Origin: an uncultured Pelagibacteraceae bacterium
GTDB lineage: Bacteria > Pseudomonadota > Alphaproteobacteria > Pelagibacterales > Pelagibacteraceae
Direction: 5' to 3'
DNA length: 62,017 nt
NCBI GenBank assembly: GCA_902526085.1
Contig: CABZJN010000005.1
Location: 1-62,017 of the forward strand
The notes beneath the pieces are model-generated. The model saw nothing but the letters and a program-made list of their open reading frames with translations. It ran no database searches and had not been told where the DNA came from. The position numbers and the translations under genes were made by a program. Shown piece by piece: positions 28,140 through 35,556 of the stretch; within the stretch, counting starts at the first letter, position 1; each line of letters opens with the position of its first letter.

Positions 28140-28529
28140 ATGAATAAAATTTTAGTTGAAGTATCTGTAGGTGAACTTTTAGATAAAATTTCAATTTTAG
28201 AAATCAAAAAAGAAAGGGTTAGAGATTCAGATAAATTAATATTTATTAATGATGAATATCTTGTTTTAACTAAACAATTAGATGATAACATAGCTCTAAA
28301 TGATGAATTAAAAAAACTTTATGAAGAATTAAAGGCAATAAATGCCAAACTTTGGGATATTGAAGATAATAAAAGAATGTGTGAAAAAAATAGCGATTTT
28401 GGTGAAAATTTTATTAAACTATCGAGGGATGTTCATTTTCTAAATGATGATAGAGCAAAAATTAAATTGGCAATAAACAATAAAACTGGTTCAAAAATAA
28501 AAGAGATTAAACAATACACAAACTATTAA
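28140..28529 (+). CDS. Small soluble protein, DUF6165-like
   Basis: A 129-residue, charged, mostly helical protein beginning KILVEVSVGELLDKISILEIK, with later ELKAINAKLWDIEDNKR. I recognise this as like the DUF6165 family, small proteins commonly encoded by lipopolysaccharide glycosyltransferase genes; their function is unknown. Heptad-like spacing suggests coiled-coil helices. It is divergent from the GT9 gene and overlaps the convergent amidase gene by 4 bases. Confidence 0.7.
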   Translation: MNKILVEVSVGELLDKISILEIKKERVRDSDKLIFINDEYLVLTKQLDDNIALNDELKKLYEELKAINAKLWDIEDNKRMCEKNSDFGENFIKLSRDVHFLNDDRAKIKLAINNKTGSKIKEIKQYTNY

Positions 28530-29311
28530 AGCATACTTGGAATAACTTTTCTTAACTCCATCGCTATTTTTGGTTTTATATTTGAATATATAATTCCTTT
28601 TCCAAATTTCTTGAGCGCCATTATTTTACCATCGGGTGAAATAATAACTGTATGCCCAAAAGTTTCTCTTTTAATCGTATTTTTTCCTGTTTGATTAGGT
28701 GCAAAAATATAACAAAAGTTTTCAATTGCTCTTGCTTTTAATAAAGTTAACCAATGTCTTTGACCAGTTGTTTTAGTAAATGCAGATGGAACAGTTATAA
28801 AACTTAGATTTCTTTTTGATAAGTTTCGATAAAGTTCTGGAAATCTTAAATCATAACAAATTGAAAGACCTAATTTTCCCCAGGGTAATTTAGCAGATAC
28901 TAATTTTTTACCTGCCGTAAATACTTTACTTTCTTTATGTTGCTCTTTTTTTGAAACTTTAACATCAAACATATTTATTTTATCATAATAAGTATTTATT
29001 TTACCCTTAGGTCCAATAAGAATAGACCTGTTTCTTAATTTGTTTTTTTCTTTAATGCACATTGATCCAAGAAGTATCCATTTCTTCTTTGTTTTAGCTA
29101 TAATTTTTACTTTTTTTATTATTGGATCATTTTTCATTTCATATGAATATTTAAATAAATTATCTTTGTCAGCAGACATTAATGAAGAGGTTTCTGGTGT
29201 AATTATTAAGTCTGCTTTATTTGCAATTGCTTGATTAATATATTTTACAATATCTTTGAAATTTTTATTATAATCTTCTCCGCTAGATAATTGAATACAG
29301 CCTACTTTCAT
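28526..29311 (-). CDS. Carbon-nitrogen hydrolase (nitrilase superfamily), Nit-like amidase
   Basis: A 261-residue enzyme with the Glu-Lys-Cys triad: E40 in TPETS, K111 in YYDKINMFD and C152 in SICYDLRFPELYRN. CYDLRFPE and the following VPSAFTKTTGQRHW are typical of the Nit1/Nit2 branch, which hydrolyses deaminated glutathione or alpha-keto acid amides, rather than of N-carbamoylputrescine amidases. It overlaps the upstream permease gene by 4 bases, so it is the last gene of the ABC-transporter operon; it may act on an imported amide or simply be a repair enzyme. Confidence 0.85.
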   Translation of the reverse strand: MKVGCIQLSSGEDYNKNFKDIVKYINQAIANKADLIITPETSSLMSADKDNLFKYSYEMKNDPIIKKVKIIAKTKKKWILLGSMCIKEKNKLRNRSILIGPKGKINTYYDKINMFDVKVSKKEQHKESKVFTAGKKLVSAKLPWGKLGLSICYDLRFPELYRNLSKRNLSFITVPSAFTKTTGQRHWLTLLKARAIENFCYIFAPNQTGKNTIKRETFGHTVIISPDGKIMALKKFGKGIIYSNIKPKIAMELRKVIPSML

Positions 29312-29985
29312 GTTTGAAATCCGTATTTTTTTTCTAAGTACTTTATAATATTGTGAATTATAAATGTTATAAATAAATAAATTATCCCTGCTGTAATAAA
29401 AGCCTCAAAAGGTTTAAAAGTTAAAACATTTACTTTTCTAGCTTCACCCATTAAATCCATAATTGTTATAACGCTTGCTAGAGAGGTACCTTTAAGCATT
29501 AATATTATTTCATTTCCATATGCTGGAAGTGATTGTTTTATAGCTATGGGTAATTGAATTCTGTAAAAAGTTATTTTTTTTGTTACTCCTAAACTTTGAG
29601 CGGCTTCAATATAACCTTTTTTAATTGTCTGAAATGCTGATCGTAGTATTTCAGACGTATAAGCTCCCGTATTTAAAGAAAAAGCAATAATTGCACACCA
29701 ATATGGCTCTTTTATAATTACCCAAAAAAAAGAATTTCTTAAAAATTCAACATTAGCTAATCCATAATAAATTAAATATAATTGAACTAGTAGAGGTGTT
29801 CCTCTAAAAAAATAAGAATACCCATAAGCAAACTTATTAATTATTAGGTTTTTATTAATTCTTAAAATTGCAAAAATTAAACCTATTATTAATCCAAAAA
29901 ACATTGAAACTACTAAAAGTTGAAGAGTAATAACTGCACCATTCAGCAAACTGGGAAAAATACTAATCATTAAATTTATATCCAT
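29308..29985 (-). CDS. Amino-acid ABC transporter permease (HisM type)
   Basis: A 225-residue polytopic permease. It has the HAAT-family start GAVITLQLLVVSMFFGLIIGL, FFRGTPLLVQLYLIYYG, and the ATPase-contacting EAA loop EAAQSLGVTKKITFYRIQLPIA. The ATG shares a base with the upstream permease stop. No ATP-binding subunit gene is in the operon or elsewhere in the window, so the transporter must use an ATPase encoded at another locus. Confidence 0.92.
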   Translation of the reverse strand: MDINLMISIFPSLLNGAVITLQLLVVSMFFGLIIGLIFAILRINKNLIINKFAYGYSYFFRGTPLLVQLYLIYYGLANVEFLRNSFFWVIIKEPYWCAIIAFSLNTGAYTSEILRSAFQTIKKGYIEAAQSLGVTKKITFYRIQLPIAIKQSLPAYGNEIILMLKGTSLASVITIMDLMGEARKVNVLTFKPFEAFITAGIIYLFITFIIHNIIKYLEKKYGFQT

Positions 29986-30677
29986 CAGTATCCTTTGCTA
30001 TATTTCATTTCTAATTTATTAATTAATTTCATGCTTAAGAAGGTAAGCATTAAGTATAATACCGCTGCTACTGAATAAAAAAATAAAGGATCTCTAGTTG
30101 AACCAGCGGCAATATAAGATTGCCTCATTATTTCTACTAATCCTGTTACAGAAATTAAAGAAGTATCTTTTAAAGTTATTTGCCAAACATTACTTATGTT
30201 AGGAATTGATAACCTCAACATTTGTGGTAAAATGATTTTGTAAAATTGAATATTTTTTTTTATTCCCAAAACTTTTGAAGCTTCAAATTGACCTTTATCG
30301 ATTGATAAAATAGCTCCCCTAAAAACTTCAGTAGAATAGGCTCCAGAAATAATCCCAATTGCAAGAGCACCAGTTATAAATGCATTAATTTCAATATAAC
30401 CATCATACCCAAAAATTGAAGCTACATACATTACAGCCCCAGTGCCACCAAAAAATAATAAGTAAATTACTAACAGTTCTGGAACACCTCTAATAATAGT
30501 AGTGTAACAATTTCCAATAATATTAAATGATTTATTTTTAGAAAGTTTTAAGGGTGTAAATATTAAAGCAAATAAAAAGCCTATTGCCATAGCTGCAATA
30601 GAAACAGCAATTGTCATTAAGGTTGCAAAAAAAAGCTCATCTCCCCAACCAGTATCTCCAAATGAAAGAAGTTCCAT
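29985..30677 (-). CDS. Amino-acid ABC transporter permease (HisQ type)
   Basis: A 230-residue permease with LFFATLMTIAVSIAAMAIGFLFAL, TTIIRGVPELLVIYLLFFGG and the EAA loop EASKVLGIKKNIQFYKIILPQML. The longer loop between the first helices is common in HisQ-type subunits of basic amino acid or opine transporters. It starts just past a perfect 11-base hairpin (30684-30708) that separates it from the binding-protein gene. Confidence 0.92.
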   Translation of the reverse strand: MELLSFGDTGWGDELFFATLMTIAVSIAAMAIGFLFALIFTPLKLSKNKSFNIIGNCYTTIIRGVPELLVIYLLFFGGTGAVMYVASIFGYDGYIEINAFITGALAIGIISGAYSTEVFRGAILSIDKGQFEASKVLGIKKNIQFYKIILPQMLRLSIPNISNVWQITLKDTSLISVTGLVEIMRQSYIAAGSTRDPLFFYSVAAVLYLMLTFLSMKLINKLEMKYSKGY

Positions 30678-30721: not shown

Positions 30722-31549
30722 TTACATAGAAGCGTCAAAACCGAACCATTTGATGGCTAGTTTGCTAATAATTCCATCATCTCTAGCTTTATCAATTGCT
30801 GCATTAAATTCATTAAGAAGCTTAGAGTCTCCTTTTCTAATTCCTACACCAACTCCATTGCCAAATGCTCCACCAGAGAAAGTAGGACCAGTCAAAACTA
30901 CTGCTTTTCCAGATTTTTCTGCATAGTCAGTGAATGCAACTGCAGCTGCAAGAGCAACATCACATCTTCCATTTGTCAAGTCTAGATTAACTTCGTCTTG
31001 AGTTTTGTAAGTTTTAAGTTTTATCTTGCCAACATCACCAGACTCTAAAAAGTTTTGATGAATTGTACCTATTTGTGTACAAACTGTTTTACCAGATAAA
31101 GAACTAGTTAATGTTTTAAGAGCTTTGTCAACATCAGAACCACCGATATTAAGGTTAATACCTTCTGGTGTGTTGATATTTTCAATACTTGATCCCTTCA
31201 TTACAGCTAAGGATGCAACTTCATCAGCATATCCTTGAGAAAAATTTATAGTTTTTAATCTTTCAGATGTAATTGACATTCCAGCCATTATTGCATCAAA
31301 TTTCTTTGAAGTCAGAGCAGGAATCATCCCATCCCAGTCCTGTTCAACTACTGTACAATCATGATTCATTATTTCACACAAGGCATTAGCTAAATCAACC
31401 TCAAATCCGTTAAGATTGCCTGATGAATCTTTAGAATTCCAAGGAGGATAAGCTCCTTCAGTTCCTATTTTTATCGACCCCGCATTTGCACTAAATACTA
31501 GGAAAAAAGAAATTATAATTCCTAGTCCAAATTTTTTAAATTTACTCAT
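30722..31549 (-). CDS. Amino-acid ABC transporter substrate-binding protein (family 3)
   Basis: A 275-residue periplasmic protein with signal peptide ending near SANAG. It shows family 3 features: IKIGTEGAYPPWNSKDSSGNLNGFEVDLANALC, DWDGMIPALTSKKFDAIMAGMSIT, and the NGRCDVALAAAVAF hinge region. This is the LAO/HisJ/ArgT type that binds polar, often basic, amino acids or opines. It lies 58 bases downstream of the polyamine gene on the same strand, and may be co-transcribed with it. Confidence 0.93.
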   Translation of the reverse strand: MSKFKKFGLGIIISFFLVFSANAGSIKIGTEGAYPPWNSKDSSGNLNGFEVDLANALCEIMNHDCTVVEQDWDGMIPALTSKKFDAIMAGMSITSERLKTINFSQGYADEVASLAVMKGSSIENINTPEGINLNIGGSDVDKALKTLTSSLSGKTVCTQIGTIHQNFLESGDVGKIKLKTYKTQDEVNLDLTNGRCDVALAAAVAFTDYAEKSGKAVVLTGPTFSGGAFGNGVGVGIRKGDSKLLNEFNAAIDKARDDGIISKLAIKWFGFDASM

Positions 31550-31607: not shown

Positions 31608-32648
31608 TTAGTGGTTTATTGATGATGAAAAGTTCCATGAACAATCAAAACTTGGAATATAAACTCTTGATAATTTTGTATTACCAAAGTTTTGATTGAA
31701 TACATTTAGCCAACTCTCAACTTGTTTGGGTTTTTTATCTTGGCTACCAACTTGTGCAGTAATAACTCCTTTTGGTTTTAAAATTCTTACAAGTGAATGC
31801 ATATTTTTAGAGGCCAAATCTATGCAATATTGATCATCATTTAAATCAACATATATCTGATCATATGTATCATCTTTGACTGATTTGATACTCTCAAATG
31901 CATCTCCCCAAACACATTTTACTGAATTTTTTTCATTTGCTTTATTACCAATCTTTCCAAGATGTTTATCACATACATCTACCACTTCTGGATCTAATTC
32001 ATACCAATCAATAAAACCAAAGTTTTTAGATATACACTCTCTAGCTACACCTCCATCTCCCCCGCCAATTATTGCAGCTTTTTCCTTATTAGAGTTCAAA
32101 TCTAAACCAGCATTAACAAAAGTAGAACTATAAAGGTGTTCATCTTTTTCAGCTACTTGAATTTCATTATCTATAAATAATGCTTTTCCAAATTGTTCTA
32201 ATTCTAATATCTCAATATGTTGCCCAACATTTGATTTAAAATTTTCTAATACTTTATTAACTACGTATGATTTTTTTAATCCTGGCGAGCTATAAATGTC
32301 ATGATAAAGATCCACTGTATCTCTATTAAATTCCTTTTTAACTATTCTACTGTGTTCAATTTCCTCTTTAATAACATTTATTGCTACTGAAGGTGAAATT
32401 TTTGCACATGTAAAAAAGTCAAAACTGATAATGCCTTTTTCGGGAAAAGTATGGAAACTGATGTGACTTTCTGCGAGAAGTGCAATTAAAGTAAATCCTT
32501 GTGGCTCAAATTTATATTTAGAAATTTCAAGCACAGTAACCTTCGCTATTTTCGCGATTTTATAAACTAATTTCTCAAAGAAAACAGGATCGTATTCCCT
32601 TTTTGTACCTATTATATCAAGCGTAATATGTTCTCCAACTTTAGTCAT
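31608..32648 (-). CDS. speDE: Fused S-adenosylmethionine decarboxylase / aminopropyltransferase
   Basis: This single 346-residue protein joins two steps of spermidine synthesis. Residues 1-115 form a class 1b AdoMet decarboxylase: E60-S61 is the self-cleavage site that makes the pyruvoyl group, H66 lies in SFHTFPE and C81 in FFTCAK. Residues 130-346 form an aminopropyltransferase with GQHIEI, FGKALFIDNEIQ and the AdoMet-binding GGGDGG at 195-200. Two family positions differ: YHE is replaced by YSS after DEHL, and the Asp loop reads YVDLNDDQY instead of the usual DSTDP. It makes methylthioadenosine, the substrate of mtnP here. Both halves appear intact, so I infer it is bifunctional. Confidence 0.9.
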   Translation of the reverse strand: MTKVGEHITLDIIGTKREYDPVFFEKLVYKIAKIAKVTVLEISKYKFEPQGFTLIALLAESHISFHTFPEKGIISFDFFTCAKISPSVAINVIKEEIEHSRIVKKEFNRDTVDLYHDIYSSPGLKKSYVVNKVLENFKSNVGQHIEILELEQFGKALFIDNEIQVAEKDEHLYSSTFVNAGLDLNSNKEKAAIIGGGDGGVARECISKNFGFIDWYELDPEVVDVCDKHLGKIGNKANEKNSVKCVWGDAFESIKSVKDDTYDQIYVDLNDDQYCIDLASKNMHSLVRILKPKGVITAQVGSQDKKPKQVESWLNVFNQNFGNTKLSRVYIPSFDCSWNFSSSINH

Positions 32649-32733: not shown

Positions 32734-34767
32734 TTGAAAAATAATTGGTCAAATACAGAAGCTAAAAAATATATATCAAAATACAAGAAACTGGGTCATT
32801 CTAGGGATATGGCATTGAGAGTTTATACAACTAGATTACTAGGAAGAAATACTGAATTGGTTTTGCATGGAGGTGGTAATACCTCTGTTAAAACTACCTT
32901 AAAAGATATAGATGGAAAAAACTATGATGTTTTGTGTGTGAAAGGTAGTGGATGGGATATGGCAGAAATTGAACCAGAAGGTTTGCCAGCTGTAAAAATA
33001 AATCCTCTTTTGGCATTAAAGAATAAAAAAAAATTATCAGATGAAGAAATGGTAGCATATCAAAAAAGGAATTTAATTAACATTAAATCTCCAAATCCAT
33101 CTGTTGAAACTTTTCTTCATGCTTTTTTACCATTTAAGTTTGTTGACCATACGCATTCTGATGCGATTATGAACGTAACTAACAGACCAAATGGTATTAC
33201 TTTTTGCAAAAAGATATTTGGCAAAAAAGTAAGTATTATTCCTTATGTAATGCCAGGGTATGGATTAGCTCAGAGGATTAAAGAGGTTTACTCAAAAAAT
33301 CCAAATATAAACTGTCTTATTTTACTTAATCATGGAATTTTCACATTCTCTAACGATGCGAAAAAATCATATGATCTAATGATCAAATATGTGAGTGATG
33401 CTGAAAAGGCTATAAAAAAATTAAAAAGAAAAAAGATCAAACAAATAAAAAATTTAAATACTAAAATTACTCCTGCTCAAATAGCACCAATACTTCGAGG
33501 ACTAACATCTAATGGTGCAAATAAAAAATTTATTCTTACTTTTAGAAATAATAAAATATTGAAGTATTTTATTGATGGAAAAGAGGTGTCAAGATATTCC
33601 ACAGAAGGAACCGCAACACCAGATCATGTAATAAGAGTTAAACCCTTTCCTTTAATTATAAAACCTAAAGCTAGATCCTCAATTAGTGAATTTGAAAAAA
33701 CTGCAAAAAAAGCATTTATAAATTATAGGAAAAAATATTTGCAATATTTTGAACAAAACCAAAAAAAGGTTAAAGAAAAAAAGACAATGCTAGATACTTC
33801 ACCAAGAGTAATAATAGTACAAAATATTGGTATATTTTGCGTAGGTAACAGTCTTAAGGCTGCAAATATTGCTGCTGATTTGACAGAGACTAGCGCAAGA
33901 GTAATTTCATCCGTTGAAGAAACCTCTAAGTATAAATTTATAACAAAAAAAGATATTTTTGATGTTGAATATTGGTCTCTTGAACAAGCAAAATTAAAAA
34001 AAGAAAAAAAGGAATTAGAAGGAAGTATTGTTGTTATCACTGGTGCTTTTGGTGGAATAGGAACAGCAACATATAAATTATTCAAAAAATATGGCGCAGA
34101 AGTAATTTTAATAGACAATAATAAAAAAAAGGTTGATGAAATGAGCAAGAAATTAAATGATCTTTGCATTTATTGCGATGTAACAAACAAAGAAAGTGTT
34201 AAAAGAGCATTTAATTTAATTTCATATAAATTTGGGGGGATAGATATTTTAATATCAAATGCGGGTACTGCTACAGGAGGTTCTATTGCCGAGGTAAGTG
34301 ACAAAATATTAAGAAAAAGTTTTGAAGATAACTTCTTTTCTCATCAATACTGTGCTTCCGAAGCTACAAGAATTATGAAACTTCAAAATAATGAAGGATG
34401 CTTATTATTTAATATTTCAAAACAGTCTGTAAATCCAGGTAAAAATTTTGGACCCTATGGTTTGCCAAAATCTGCGTTATTAAATCTTTGCAAACAATAT
34501 GCTGTTGATTATGGTTCTTACGGGATAAGATCTAATGGGGTTAATGCAGATAGAATTAGAAGTGGTCTTCTAAATGATAAAATGATCAAATCAAGGGCAA
34601 AAGCCAGAGATGTTACGACTGATAATTATATGAAGGGCAATTTACTTTTAAATGAAGTCAAAGCCGAAGATGTAGCCAAAGCATTCTTTCATCTTTCAAT
34701 TTCAAAAAAAACAACTGGAGCTATTTTAACAGTTGATGGTGGAAATATTGCAGCATCTTTGAGATAG
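32734..34767 (+). CDS. Fused class II aldolase / short-chain dehydrogenase
   Basis: The 677-residue protein has an N-terminal class II (RhaD-like) aldolase domain, residues about 20-400, with the phosphate-binding HGGGNTS, zinc ligands in DHTHSD and LLNHG. A C-terminal SDR domain (about 425-677) has the cofactor motif TGAFGGIG and catalytic YGLPK. Start is TTG at 32734 with GAGG 8 bases upstream. Homologues are annotated as rhamnulose-1-phosphate aldolase/lactaldehyde dehydrogenase, but no rhamnose isomerase or kinase gene is present. A BKACE gene follows after 3 bases. An aldehyde formed by the first domain could be reduced or oxidised by the second. Confidence 0.87.
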   Translation: MKNNWSNTEAKKYISKYKKLGHSRDMALRVYTTRLLGRNTELVLHGGGNTSVKTTLKDIDGKNYDVLCVKGSGWDMAEIEPEGLPAVKINPLLALKNKKKLSDEEMVAYQKRNLINIKSPNPSVETFLHAFLPFKFVDHTHSDAIMNVTNRPNGITFCKKIFGKKVSIIPYVMPGYGLAQRIKEVYSKNPNINCLILLNHGIFTFSNDAKKSYDLMIKYVSDAEKAIKKLKRKKIKQIKNLNTKITPAQIAPILRGLTSNGANKKFILTFRNNKILKYFIDGKEVSRYSTEGTATPDHVIRVKPFPLIIKPKARSSISEFEKTAKKAFINYRKKYLQYFEQNQKKVKEKKTMLDTSPRVIIVQNIGIFCVGNSLKAANIAADLTETSARVISSVEETSKYKFITKKDIFDVEYWSLEQAKLKKEKKELEGSIVVITGAFGGIGTATYKLFKKYGAEVILIDNNKKKVDEMSKKLNDLCIYCDVTNKESVKRAFNLISYKFGGIDILISNAGTATGGSIAEVSDKILRKSFEDNFFSHQYCASEATRIMKLQNNEGCLLFNISKQSVNPGKNFGPYGLPKSALLNLCKQYAVDYGSYGIRSNGVNADRIRSGLLNDKMIKSRAKARDVTTDNYMKGNLLLNEVKAEDVAKAFFHLSISKKTTGAILTVDGGNIAASLR

Positions 34768-34770
34768 TTT

Positions 34771-35556
34771 ATGACTTTTTATCAACCAGATAAATTACCA
34801 AAATTAATGGTAGCTCCAAATGGAGCAAGAAAAGTCAAGAAAGATCATCCAGAAGTTCCTCTAACAATTAGCGAAACCGTTGAAGTTGCCAAAAAATGTT
34901 TTGAAGCAGGAGCAGGTGCTATTCATTTACATGTAAGAAATGATAAAGGGGAACATGTTTTGGACGCTGGATTGTATAAAGAGGCATTAAACGAATTAGA
35001 ATACCAAGTTCCTAAAATGCATATTCAGGTCACTACTGAAGCAGTTGGTAAGTATTCTCCTGAAGATATGAGAAAACTGGCGTATGATGTTACTCCACCA
35101 GGCACATCAATTGGAACAGTTGAATTAATACCTTCCAGAAAACCATCAGAGGAAGATATAAAATTATATAAATATTTGACAGAAGCTGGAACTAAAATAC
35201 AGCATATTTTATATAATCCAGAGGATATAGACTTATTAGTGAACCTTTTAAATAAAGCAGGTATTCCGATTAATGGGGCTTGGTGCTTATTTGTAATTGG
35301 TCATTACACAGGTAAAATTAGTTATCCAGAAAAAATTCCAGATTTCTTAAAAGTAATGAAAGATAATAATGTCAGTTTAGATTGGTCGATATGCGCTTTT
35401 GCAAAAGAAGAAATGAGTTGCTTGGAGAAAGCGATTAACTTAGGTGGCAAAATTAGAGTAGGTTTTGAAAATTCTTTGTATATGCCAAATGGAGGGATTG
35501 CTCCAAACAATCATTCAAAAATATTAGCTGTGAATGAAATGTTCAAGTTATCGTAA
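34771..35556 (+). CDS. Beta-keto acid cleavage enzyme (BKACE, DUF849 family)
   Basis: The 261-residue TIM-barrel protein has the family metal site HLHVRN and the distal Glu in RVGFENSLY, preceded by LMVAPNGARKVKKDHP. BKACE enzymes condense a beta-keto acid with acetyl-CoA, giving acetoacetate and a CoA ester; the best known acts on 3-keto-5-aminohexanoate in lysine fermentation, but substrates vary widely. The gene is coupled to the aldolase/SDR fusion, and its end overlaps the convergent flavin hydroxylase by 9 bases. The substrate is unknown. Confidence 0.85.
   Translation: MTFYQPDKLPKLMVAPNGARKVKKDHPEVPLTISETVEVAKKCFEAGAGAIHLHVRNDKGEHVLDAGLYKEALNELEYQVPKMHIQVTTEAVGKYSPEDMRKLAYDVTPPGTSIGTVELIPSRKPSEEDIKLYKYLTEAGTKIQHILYNPEDIDLLVNLLNKAGIPINGAWCLFVIGHYTGKISYPEKIPDFLKVMKDNNVSLDWSICAFAKEEMSCLEKAINLGGKIRVGFENSLYMPNGGIAPNNHSKILAVNEMFKLS

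Follow-up and report, generated by a model that had tools for sequence, protein, structure and literature searches.

How many steps of polyamine synthesis can a single polypeptide of a SAR11 bacterium carry out? The question is raised by an open reading frame in the window, the whole stretch of 62,017 nucleotides analysed here from the draft genome of an uncultured Pelagibacteraceae bacterium, in which an AdoMet decarboxylase (AdoMetDC) is joined to an aminopropyltransferase. The encoded protein is understood, with high probability and by analogy to assayed relatives, as a bifunctional polyamine enzyme of SAR11 that would decarboxylate AdoMet and then form spermidine and, from it, a mixture of spermine and thermospermine, with the initial putrescine possibly derived from arginine. 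Domains, residues, distribution and gene cluster were determined in this study; the activities and products are those of two Ca. Pelagibacter fusions reported by Li et al. 2024 (PMC11107197); the activity of the window protein itself, like the route to putrescine, we infer.

Results

Domain architecture and active-site residues

The initial annotation had read the frame as one chain composed of an AdoMet decarboxylase and an aminopropyltransferase, and the Pfam domains, all of which score above their cut-offs, bear this out (Table 1). The N-terminal domain additionally reaches 91.9 bits with TIGR03330, the NCBIfam equivalog for Bacillus-type AdoMetDC (cut-off 75.65), and it unites the attributes of a class 1b AdoMet decarboxylase, that is, the AdoMet_dc domain, the E-S site and the conserved histidine and cysteine. 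The C-terminal part has those of a polyamine aminopropyltransferase, namely Spermine_synt_N, Spermine_synth and the hhhhGGG(D/E)G(G/A) motif. Its nearest NCBIfam families are polyamine aminopropyltransferases, each matched far under cut-off; with the spermidine synthase (speE) equivalogs in particular, it scores 104.7 against the required 249.55 bits (TIGR00417) and 124.3 against 260 (NF002010). The draft genome, rated 78% complete, holds one match to the whole fusion and a single match to Spermine_synth. An N-terminal class 1b AdoMetDC, a single C-terminal aminopropyltransferase and a SAR11 genome are the features by which PMC11107197 describes the SAR11 AdoMetDC-APT fusions, and all of them are present.

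Table 1. Features of the fusion gene and of the genes 3' of it, in window coordinates.
Feature	Position	Strand	Basis
AdoMet decarboxylase-aminopropyltransferase fusion	31608..32648	-	One ORF, 346 aa
Class 1b AdoMet decarboxylase domain, residues 7-109	32322..32630	-	Pfam PF02675 (AdoMet_dc), 89.7 bits, cut-off 25; aligned to 2iii and 1tlu
E60-S61, expected self-cleavage site giving the pyruvoyl group	32466..32471	-	Alignment with Thermotoga and Aquifex class 1b enzymes
Spermine_synt_N, aminopropyltransferase N-terminal domain, residues 119-167	32148..32294	-	Pfam PF17284, 34.5 bits, cut-off 22.1
Spermine_synth catalytic domain, residues 170-340	31629..32141	-	Pfam PF01564, 83.4 bits, cut-off 22.9
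GGGDGG, dcAdoMet-binding motif, residues 195-200	32049..32066	-	Row alignment; motif as described in PMC11107197
VDLNDD substrate loop, residues 267-272	31833..31850	-	Counterparts: DSTDP-type loop (SpeE), NDLTA (human spermine synthase)
ABC transporter solute-binding protein, lysine/arginine/ornithine type, directly 3' of fusion gene	30722..31549	-	TIGR01096, 235.8 bits, under cut-off 256.35
ABC transporter permease, ArtQ/HisQ-like	29985..30677	-	Profile matches
ABC transporter permease, ArtM/HisM-like	29308..29985	-	Profile matches
Carbon-nitrogen hydrolase	28526..29311	-	PF00795, 158.5 bits

An intact pyruvoyl site had also been claimed, consisting of E60-S61, H66 and C81. These residues, which we take to be those of cleavage and catalysis, align with their counterparts in the class 1b structures from Thermotoga and Aquifex, and they are invariant, together with GGGDGG and DLNDD, in all 106 distinct SAR11 rows. 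The alignment concerned is made up of the window protein and the distinct proteins of loci L001-L122, all from SAR11 and at least 83% identical to the window protein. The peculiarities pointed out for the transferase half, which besides GGGDGG are YSS in the place of YHE and DLNDD in that of the DSTDP-type loop of SpeE, proved equally real and conserved: YSS is found in 105 of the 106 rows (the remaining one has YST), and six SAR11 rows from five genera retain DLNDD without exception and YSS in five, the sixth row showing YSG. Kept in this way across SAR11 rows and genera, the DLNDD loop represents a fixed trait of the enzyme rather than a peculiarity of a single genome. Loops of DLND or DLTD type are present, too, in other proteobacterial fusions and in one standalone enzyme. 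An aspartate in motif 2, a glycine two residues on and a glutamate in motif 3 are tied to spermine synthases in PMC11107197, and the window protein has all three (D198, G200, E217); the pattern lends weak support, because most ordinary SpeE rows carry the same residues.

Putrescine supply in the same genome

Another contig stretch of the draft genome (L170, 6175-10335) contains a cluster of genes, all in one direction, for homologues of a putrescine route: an ODC-fold decarboxylase, a deoxyhypusine synthase-like protein, and homologues of N-carbamoylputrescine amidase and agmatine deiminase. The deoxyhypusine synthase-like protein exceeds the cut-off of 500 for the NCBIfam 1,9-bis(guanidino)-5-aza-nonane synthase (578.5 bits); the amidase and deiminase homologues stay under their equivalog cut-offs, as does the ODC-fold decarboxylase, for which diaminopimelate decarboxylase is the best NCBIfam name. 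PMC9992855 reports ODC homologues, one from a Ca. Pelagibacter and one from a Ca. Fonsibacter, that act on arginine and are encoded in such clusters. Considering the cluster together with these homologues, a route from arginine via agmatine and putrescine to spermidine appears reasonable. The SAR11 spermidine synthase has been proposed to run in reverse as well (PMC8437039).

Distribution and gene neighbourhood in SAR11

The fusion is the usual polyamine enzyme of SAR11. In the sample of the order, a match was present in 172 of 247 genomes, in 122 of the 149 best genomes and in 5 of 10 genera; for the window's genus, the counts were 47 of 61 sampled genomes and 10 of the 10 best. Nearly all of the carriers listed have one match per genome. 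Relatives from a scan of genome contigs, considered here as the best 80 of 442 (the named loci), belong without exception to Pelagibacteraceae or Pelagibacterales, hence to SAR11, and are 83-98% identical; among the full-length relatives in the genus group, identity to the window protein ranges from 71 to 97%. When six carriers were tested, the decarboxylase match and the only transferase match over cut-off were located in one open frame of 350-359 codons in every one of them. The match in 172 of the 247 genomes of the order argues that the fusion is not due to chance. A fusion created by chance or by frameshift was ruled out, the frame being open across the whole query in most of the matches listed.

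Origin from, or carriage by, phages was also considered and rejected, for no fused copy was found in the two collections searched, viral contigs and phage records. The viral contig scan with the fusion as query gave no relative. Queried by itself, the decarboxylase half matched 147 phage records (E 1e-3), all below 60% identity and 132 of them named Synechococcus, Prochlorococcus or cyanophage, and the transferase half matched one, from a Microcystis phage (25.6%). Judged by the first word of their names, none of these 147 records belongs to a Pelagibacter phage, despite the AdoMetDC-like arginine decarboxylase published for a pelagiphage (PMC9992855).

No match was obtained in 75 of the 247 genomes of the order. 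Absence was checked in 14 of 20 matchless genomes listed, comprising G069, G113 and twelve of the window's genus, all rated 90-99% complete. Profile search detected AdoMet_dc in none of the 14, and Spermine_synth in two, where it was weak and partial (in G138 barely above cut-off, at 23.6 against 22.9 bits). The binding protein was matched at E 1e-40 or better in one (G182), with no fusion gene beside it on that contig. Part of the absences can be put down to missing contigs, but the G069 assembly consists of one contig and is rated 99% complete. Given that AdoMet_dc is lacking from these 14 genomes while 13 of them keep the deoxyhypusine synthase-like gene, some SAR11 may forgo spermidine made via the fusion.

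The genes 3' of the fusion gene code for components of an ABC transporter and a carbon-nitrogen hydrolase (Table 1), the latter having deaminated glutathione amidase as its best NCBIfam name (197.6 bits vs a cut-off of 500). In 79 of the 80 named loci (best 80 of 442 relatives), the binding protein is encoded at most 400 bases 3' of the fusion gene, and both genes are present in all 41 of loci L001-L041. The same order is seen in genus g6, represented by one genome; in genera g2, g4 and g5 (one genome each), the C-N hydrolase is placed directly 3' of the fusion gene instead. Search of the open literature for a published ligand of the neighbouring binding protein found none. We consider it possible, if rather doubtful, that the fusion gene is part of a conserved SAR11 polyamine operon whose C-N hydrolase and, in some genera, ABC transporter are not chance neighbours and would act on polyamine precursors or derivatives, such as an acylated or carbamoylated amine, or arginine. 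On its other side, the fusion gene is adjoined by divergent genes for a bifunctional aldolase/short-chain dehydrogenase and a beta-keto acid cleavage enzyme (32734-35556); the former lies directly upstream of the fusion in just 29 of the 76 loci that leave space for it.

Transferase phylogeny and structure model

Trees were computed from the catalytic region of 32 rows, six of them from SAR11 and one, the only animal row, from human. All six SAR11 transferases fall into a single clade (100/100), to which a very long branch leads. This clade groups, at moderate support, with two standalone enzymes and another set of fusions from Proteobacteria, separately from other SpeE rows; support for the split between SAR11 plus other fusions and other SpeE was 91/79 with the human row and 89/77 without it. 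The other fusions were drawn from a search of the window's own phylum, and the bacterial fusions named closest to animals in PMC12803844 were left out. AdoMetDC-aminopropyltransferase fusions of other Pseudomonadota (L142, L143, L144, L157) were noted to have frames of 410-451 codons and loops of DLND or DLTD. In the free tree, the human row, which has the longest branch, is located beside Bacillus SpeE and other spermidine synthases, a placement flagged by the program as a possible false long-branch join. Holding SAR11 and human spermine synthase together was not rejected by the AU test (p 0.185), both being long branches and the animals being represented by one row; likewise not rejected were SAR11 plus other fusions plus human (p 0.104) and other fusions plus human (p 0.0701). 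The phylogeny called for by the initial annotation therefore sets the transferase apart, at moderate support, from ordinary SpeE, with a different loop, and leaves its kinship with animal spermine synthase neither shown nor rejected. Over the catalytic domain, the window protein is 20% identical to human spermine synthase (151 columns) and 25% to Bacillus SpeE (1iy9; 150 columns).

The AlphaFold model, for which 41 near-identical sequences served as input, is of poor quality (mean pLDDT 58.8, pTM 0.46), and the Foldseek result obtained with it supports the two-domain layout only. To that extent, the layout does resemble that of human spermine synthase, as had been suggested: the top six matches are chains of this enzyme, aligned over both domains (350-361 columns) at low TM-scores of 0.33-0.35, followed by Thermotoga AdoMetDC. 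Human spermine synthase (3c6k, 3c6m) and the SAR11 fusion each have an AdoMetDC-like N domain and a transferase in one chain, a loop starting with D-L and, close to the C terminus, a P-S-[FY]-x-x-x-W motif; unlike the assayed SAR11 fusions, the human N domain is without decarboxylase function (PMC12803844). The SpeE of neighbouring speD-speE pairs in other Alphaproteobacteria shares transferase family and dcAdoMet-binding motif with the SAR11 fusion, but it is encoded separately, has a YHE- or YQE-like motif and mostly a DSTDP-type loop, and stands apart in the trees.

Discussion

Evidence of function comes from Li et al. 2024 (PMC11107197), who used E. coli to express two such fusions, one from Ca. 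Pelagibacter HTCC1062 and one from HTCC7211. Both restored spermidine in a speD deletion strain, so the decarboxylase half of these fusions works. In a strain without speE, both made spermine and thermospermine, from which it follows that their amine use is wider than that of SpeE. The spermine and thermospermine peaks were of the same order for either fusion: HTCC1062 gave 8.07e7 and 4.18e7, respectively, and for HTCC7211, spermine reached 7.92e7 vs 7.88e3 in the empty vector, and thermospermine 4.95e7 vs not detected. Norspermidine was formed from diaminopropane by both. Compared by description, the two fusions (WP_011282223 and WP_008544956, respectively) agree with the window protein in bacterial group, domain order and a single aminopropyltransferase per genome, and the window protein appears to be their orthologue. 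The initial annotation had proposed that dcAdoMet is made and used within one polypeptide and that the altered loop may change the amine used. Production and use of dcAdoMet in one chain, and an amine use different from that of SpeE, hold for the assayed fusions of the same kind and, by analogy, probably extend to the window protein; the loop is a candidate determinant of the amine. With SAR11 fusions of this kind already expressed and assayed, the protein is not a new kind of enzyme; these two proposals and the comparison with human spermine synthase are already in print (PMC11107197, PMC12803844).

The enzyme is thus suggested to operate as follows. The class 1b domain at the N terminus would cut itself between E60 and S61 to generate the pyruvoyl group and, in this form, would decarboxylate AdoMet. 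The C-terminal domain would transfer the aminopropyl group from dcAdoMet to putrescine, giving spermidine, and a second aminopropyl group to spermidine, giving spermine and thermospermine as a mixture. Putrescine may be supplied from arginine through the separate gene cluster of the same draft genome.

A plain AdoMetDC-spermidine synthase fusion that in vivo goes no further than spermidine, the spermine and thermospermine of its relatives being products of overexpression, is in our judgement unlikely. Earlier work had already presented AdoMetDC-SpdSyn fusions (Green et al. 2011, cited after PMC12803844), spermine in seawater is reported below putrescine and spermidine (PMC8437039), and a spermine measurement in SAR11 cells was not found in the text consulted; against this, the tetraamine peaks of the HTCC7211 assay are far above the empty vector (PMC11107197). 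We attach very little probability to a switch of the N-terminal domain to decarboxylation of arginine or ornithine, like that of some AdoMetDC homologues from phages and bacteria. Such shifts are documented, one of them in a pelagiphage (PMC9992855, PMC10407285), but both assayed Ca. Pelagibacter fusions compensate for the speD deletion (PMC11107197), the genome has a separate PLP-type decarboxylase in the putrescine cluster, and the domain passes the equivalog cut-off for Bacillus-type AdoMetDC. An inactive decarboxylase domain kept as a mere scaffold, like that of human spermine synthase, would suit the common layout and the top Foldseek matches but is hardly credible in view of the invariance of E60, S61, H66 and C81 in 106 of 106 rows and of the activity of the assayed Pelagibacter fusions (PMC11107197).

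Fusions of this layout have been reported outside SAR11, too. Li et al. 2025 (PMC12803844) trace animal spermine synthase to the acquisition of an AdoMetDC-spermine synthase fusion from bacteria, with later loss of the decarboxylase function, and report a deltaproteobacterial (MBW2649524) and a Ca. Krumholzibacteria fusion (MCK4773364) among the closest bacterial matches of the animal enzyme. By description, these two combine an active AdoMetDC with a spermine-making transferase, as in SAR11, but they favour spermine over thermospermine by ~10,000-fold and 60-fold, respectively, whereas the assayed SAR11 fusions give a near-even mixture (PMC12803844, PMC11107197).

To the published picture, our study adds the conservation of the fusion across five SAR11 genera, together with its active-site residues and its unusual loop, as well as a conserved gene neighbourhood and the apparent lack of the fusion in some SAR11 genomes. 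As far as the openly available text of PMC11107197 and PMC12803844 goes, we found in it neither the conserved neighbourhood of ABC transporter and C-N hydrolase nor the absence from some SAR11 genomes. SAR11 are among the commonest bacteria of the sea, and in them one enzyme appears to carry the path from putrescine to tetraamines, as already published. It has likewise been published that the bacterial ancestor proposed for animal spermine synthase had this fused layout.
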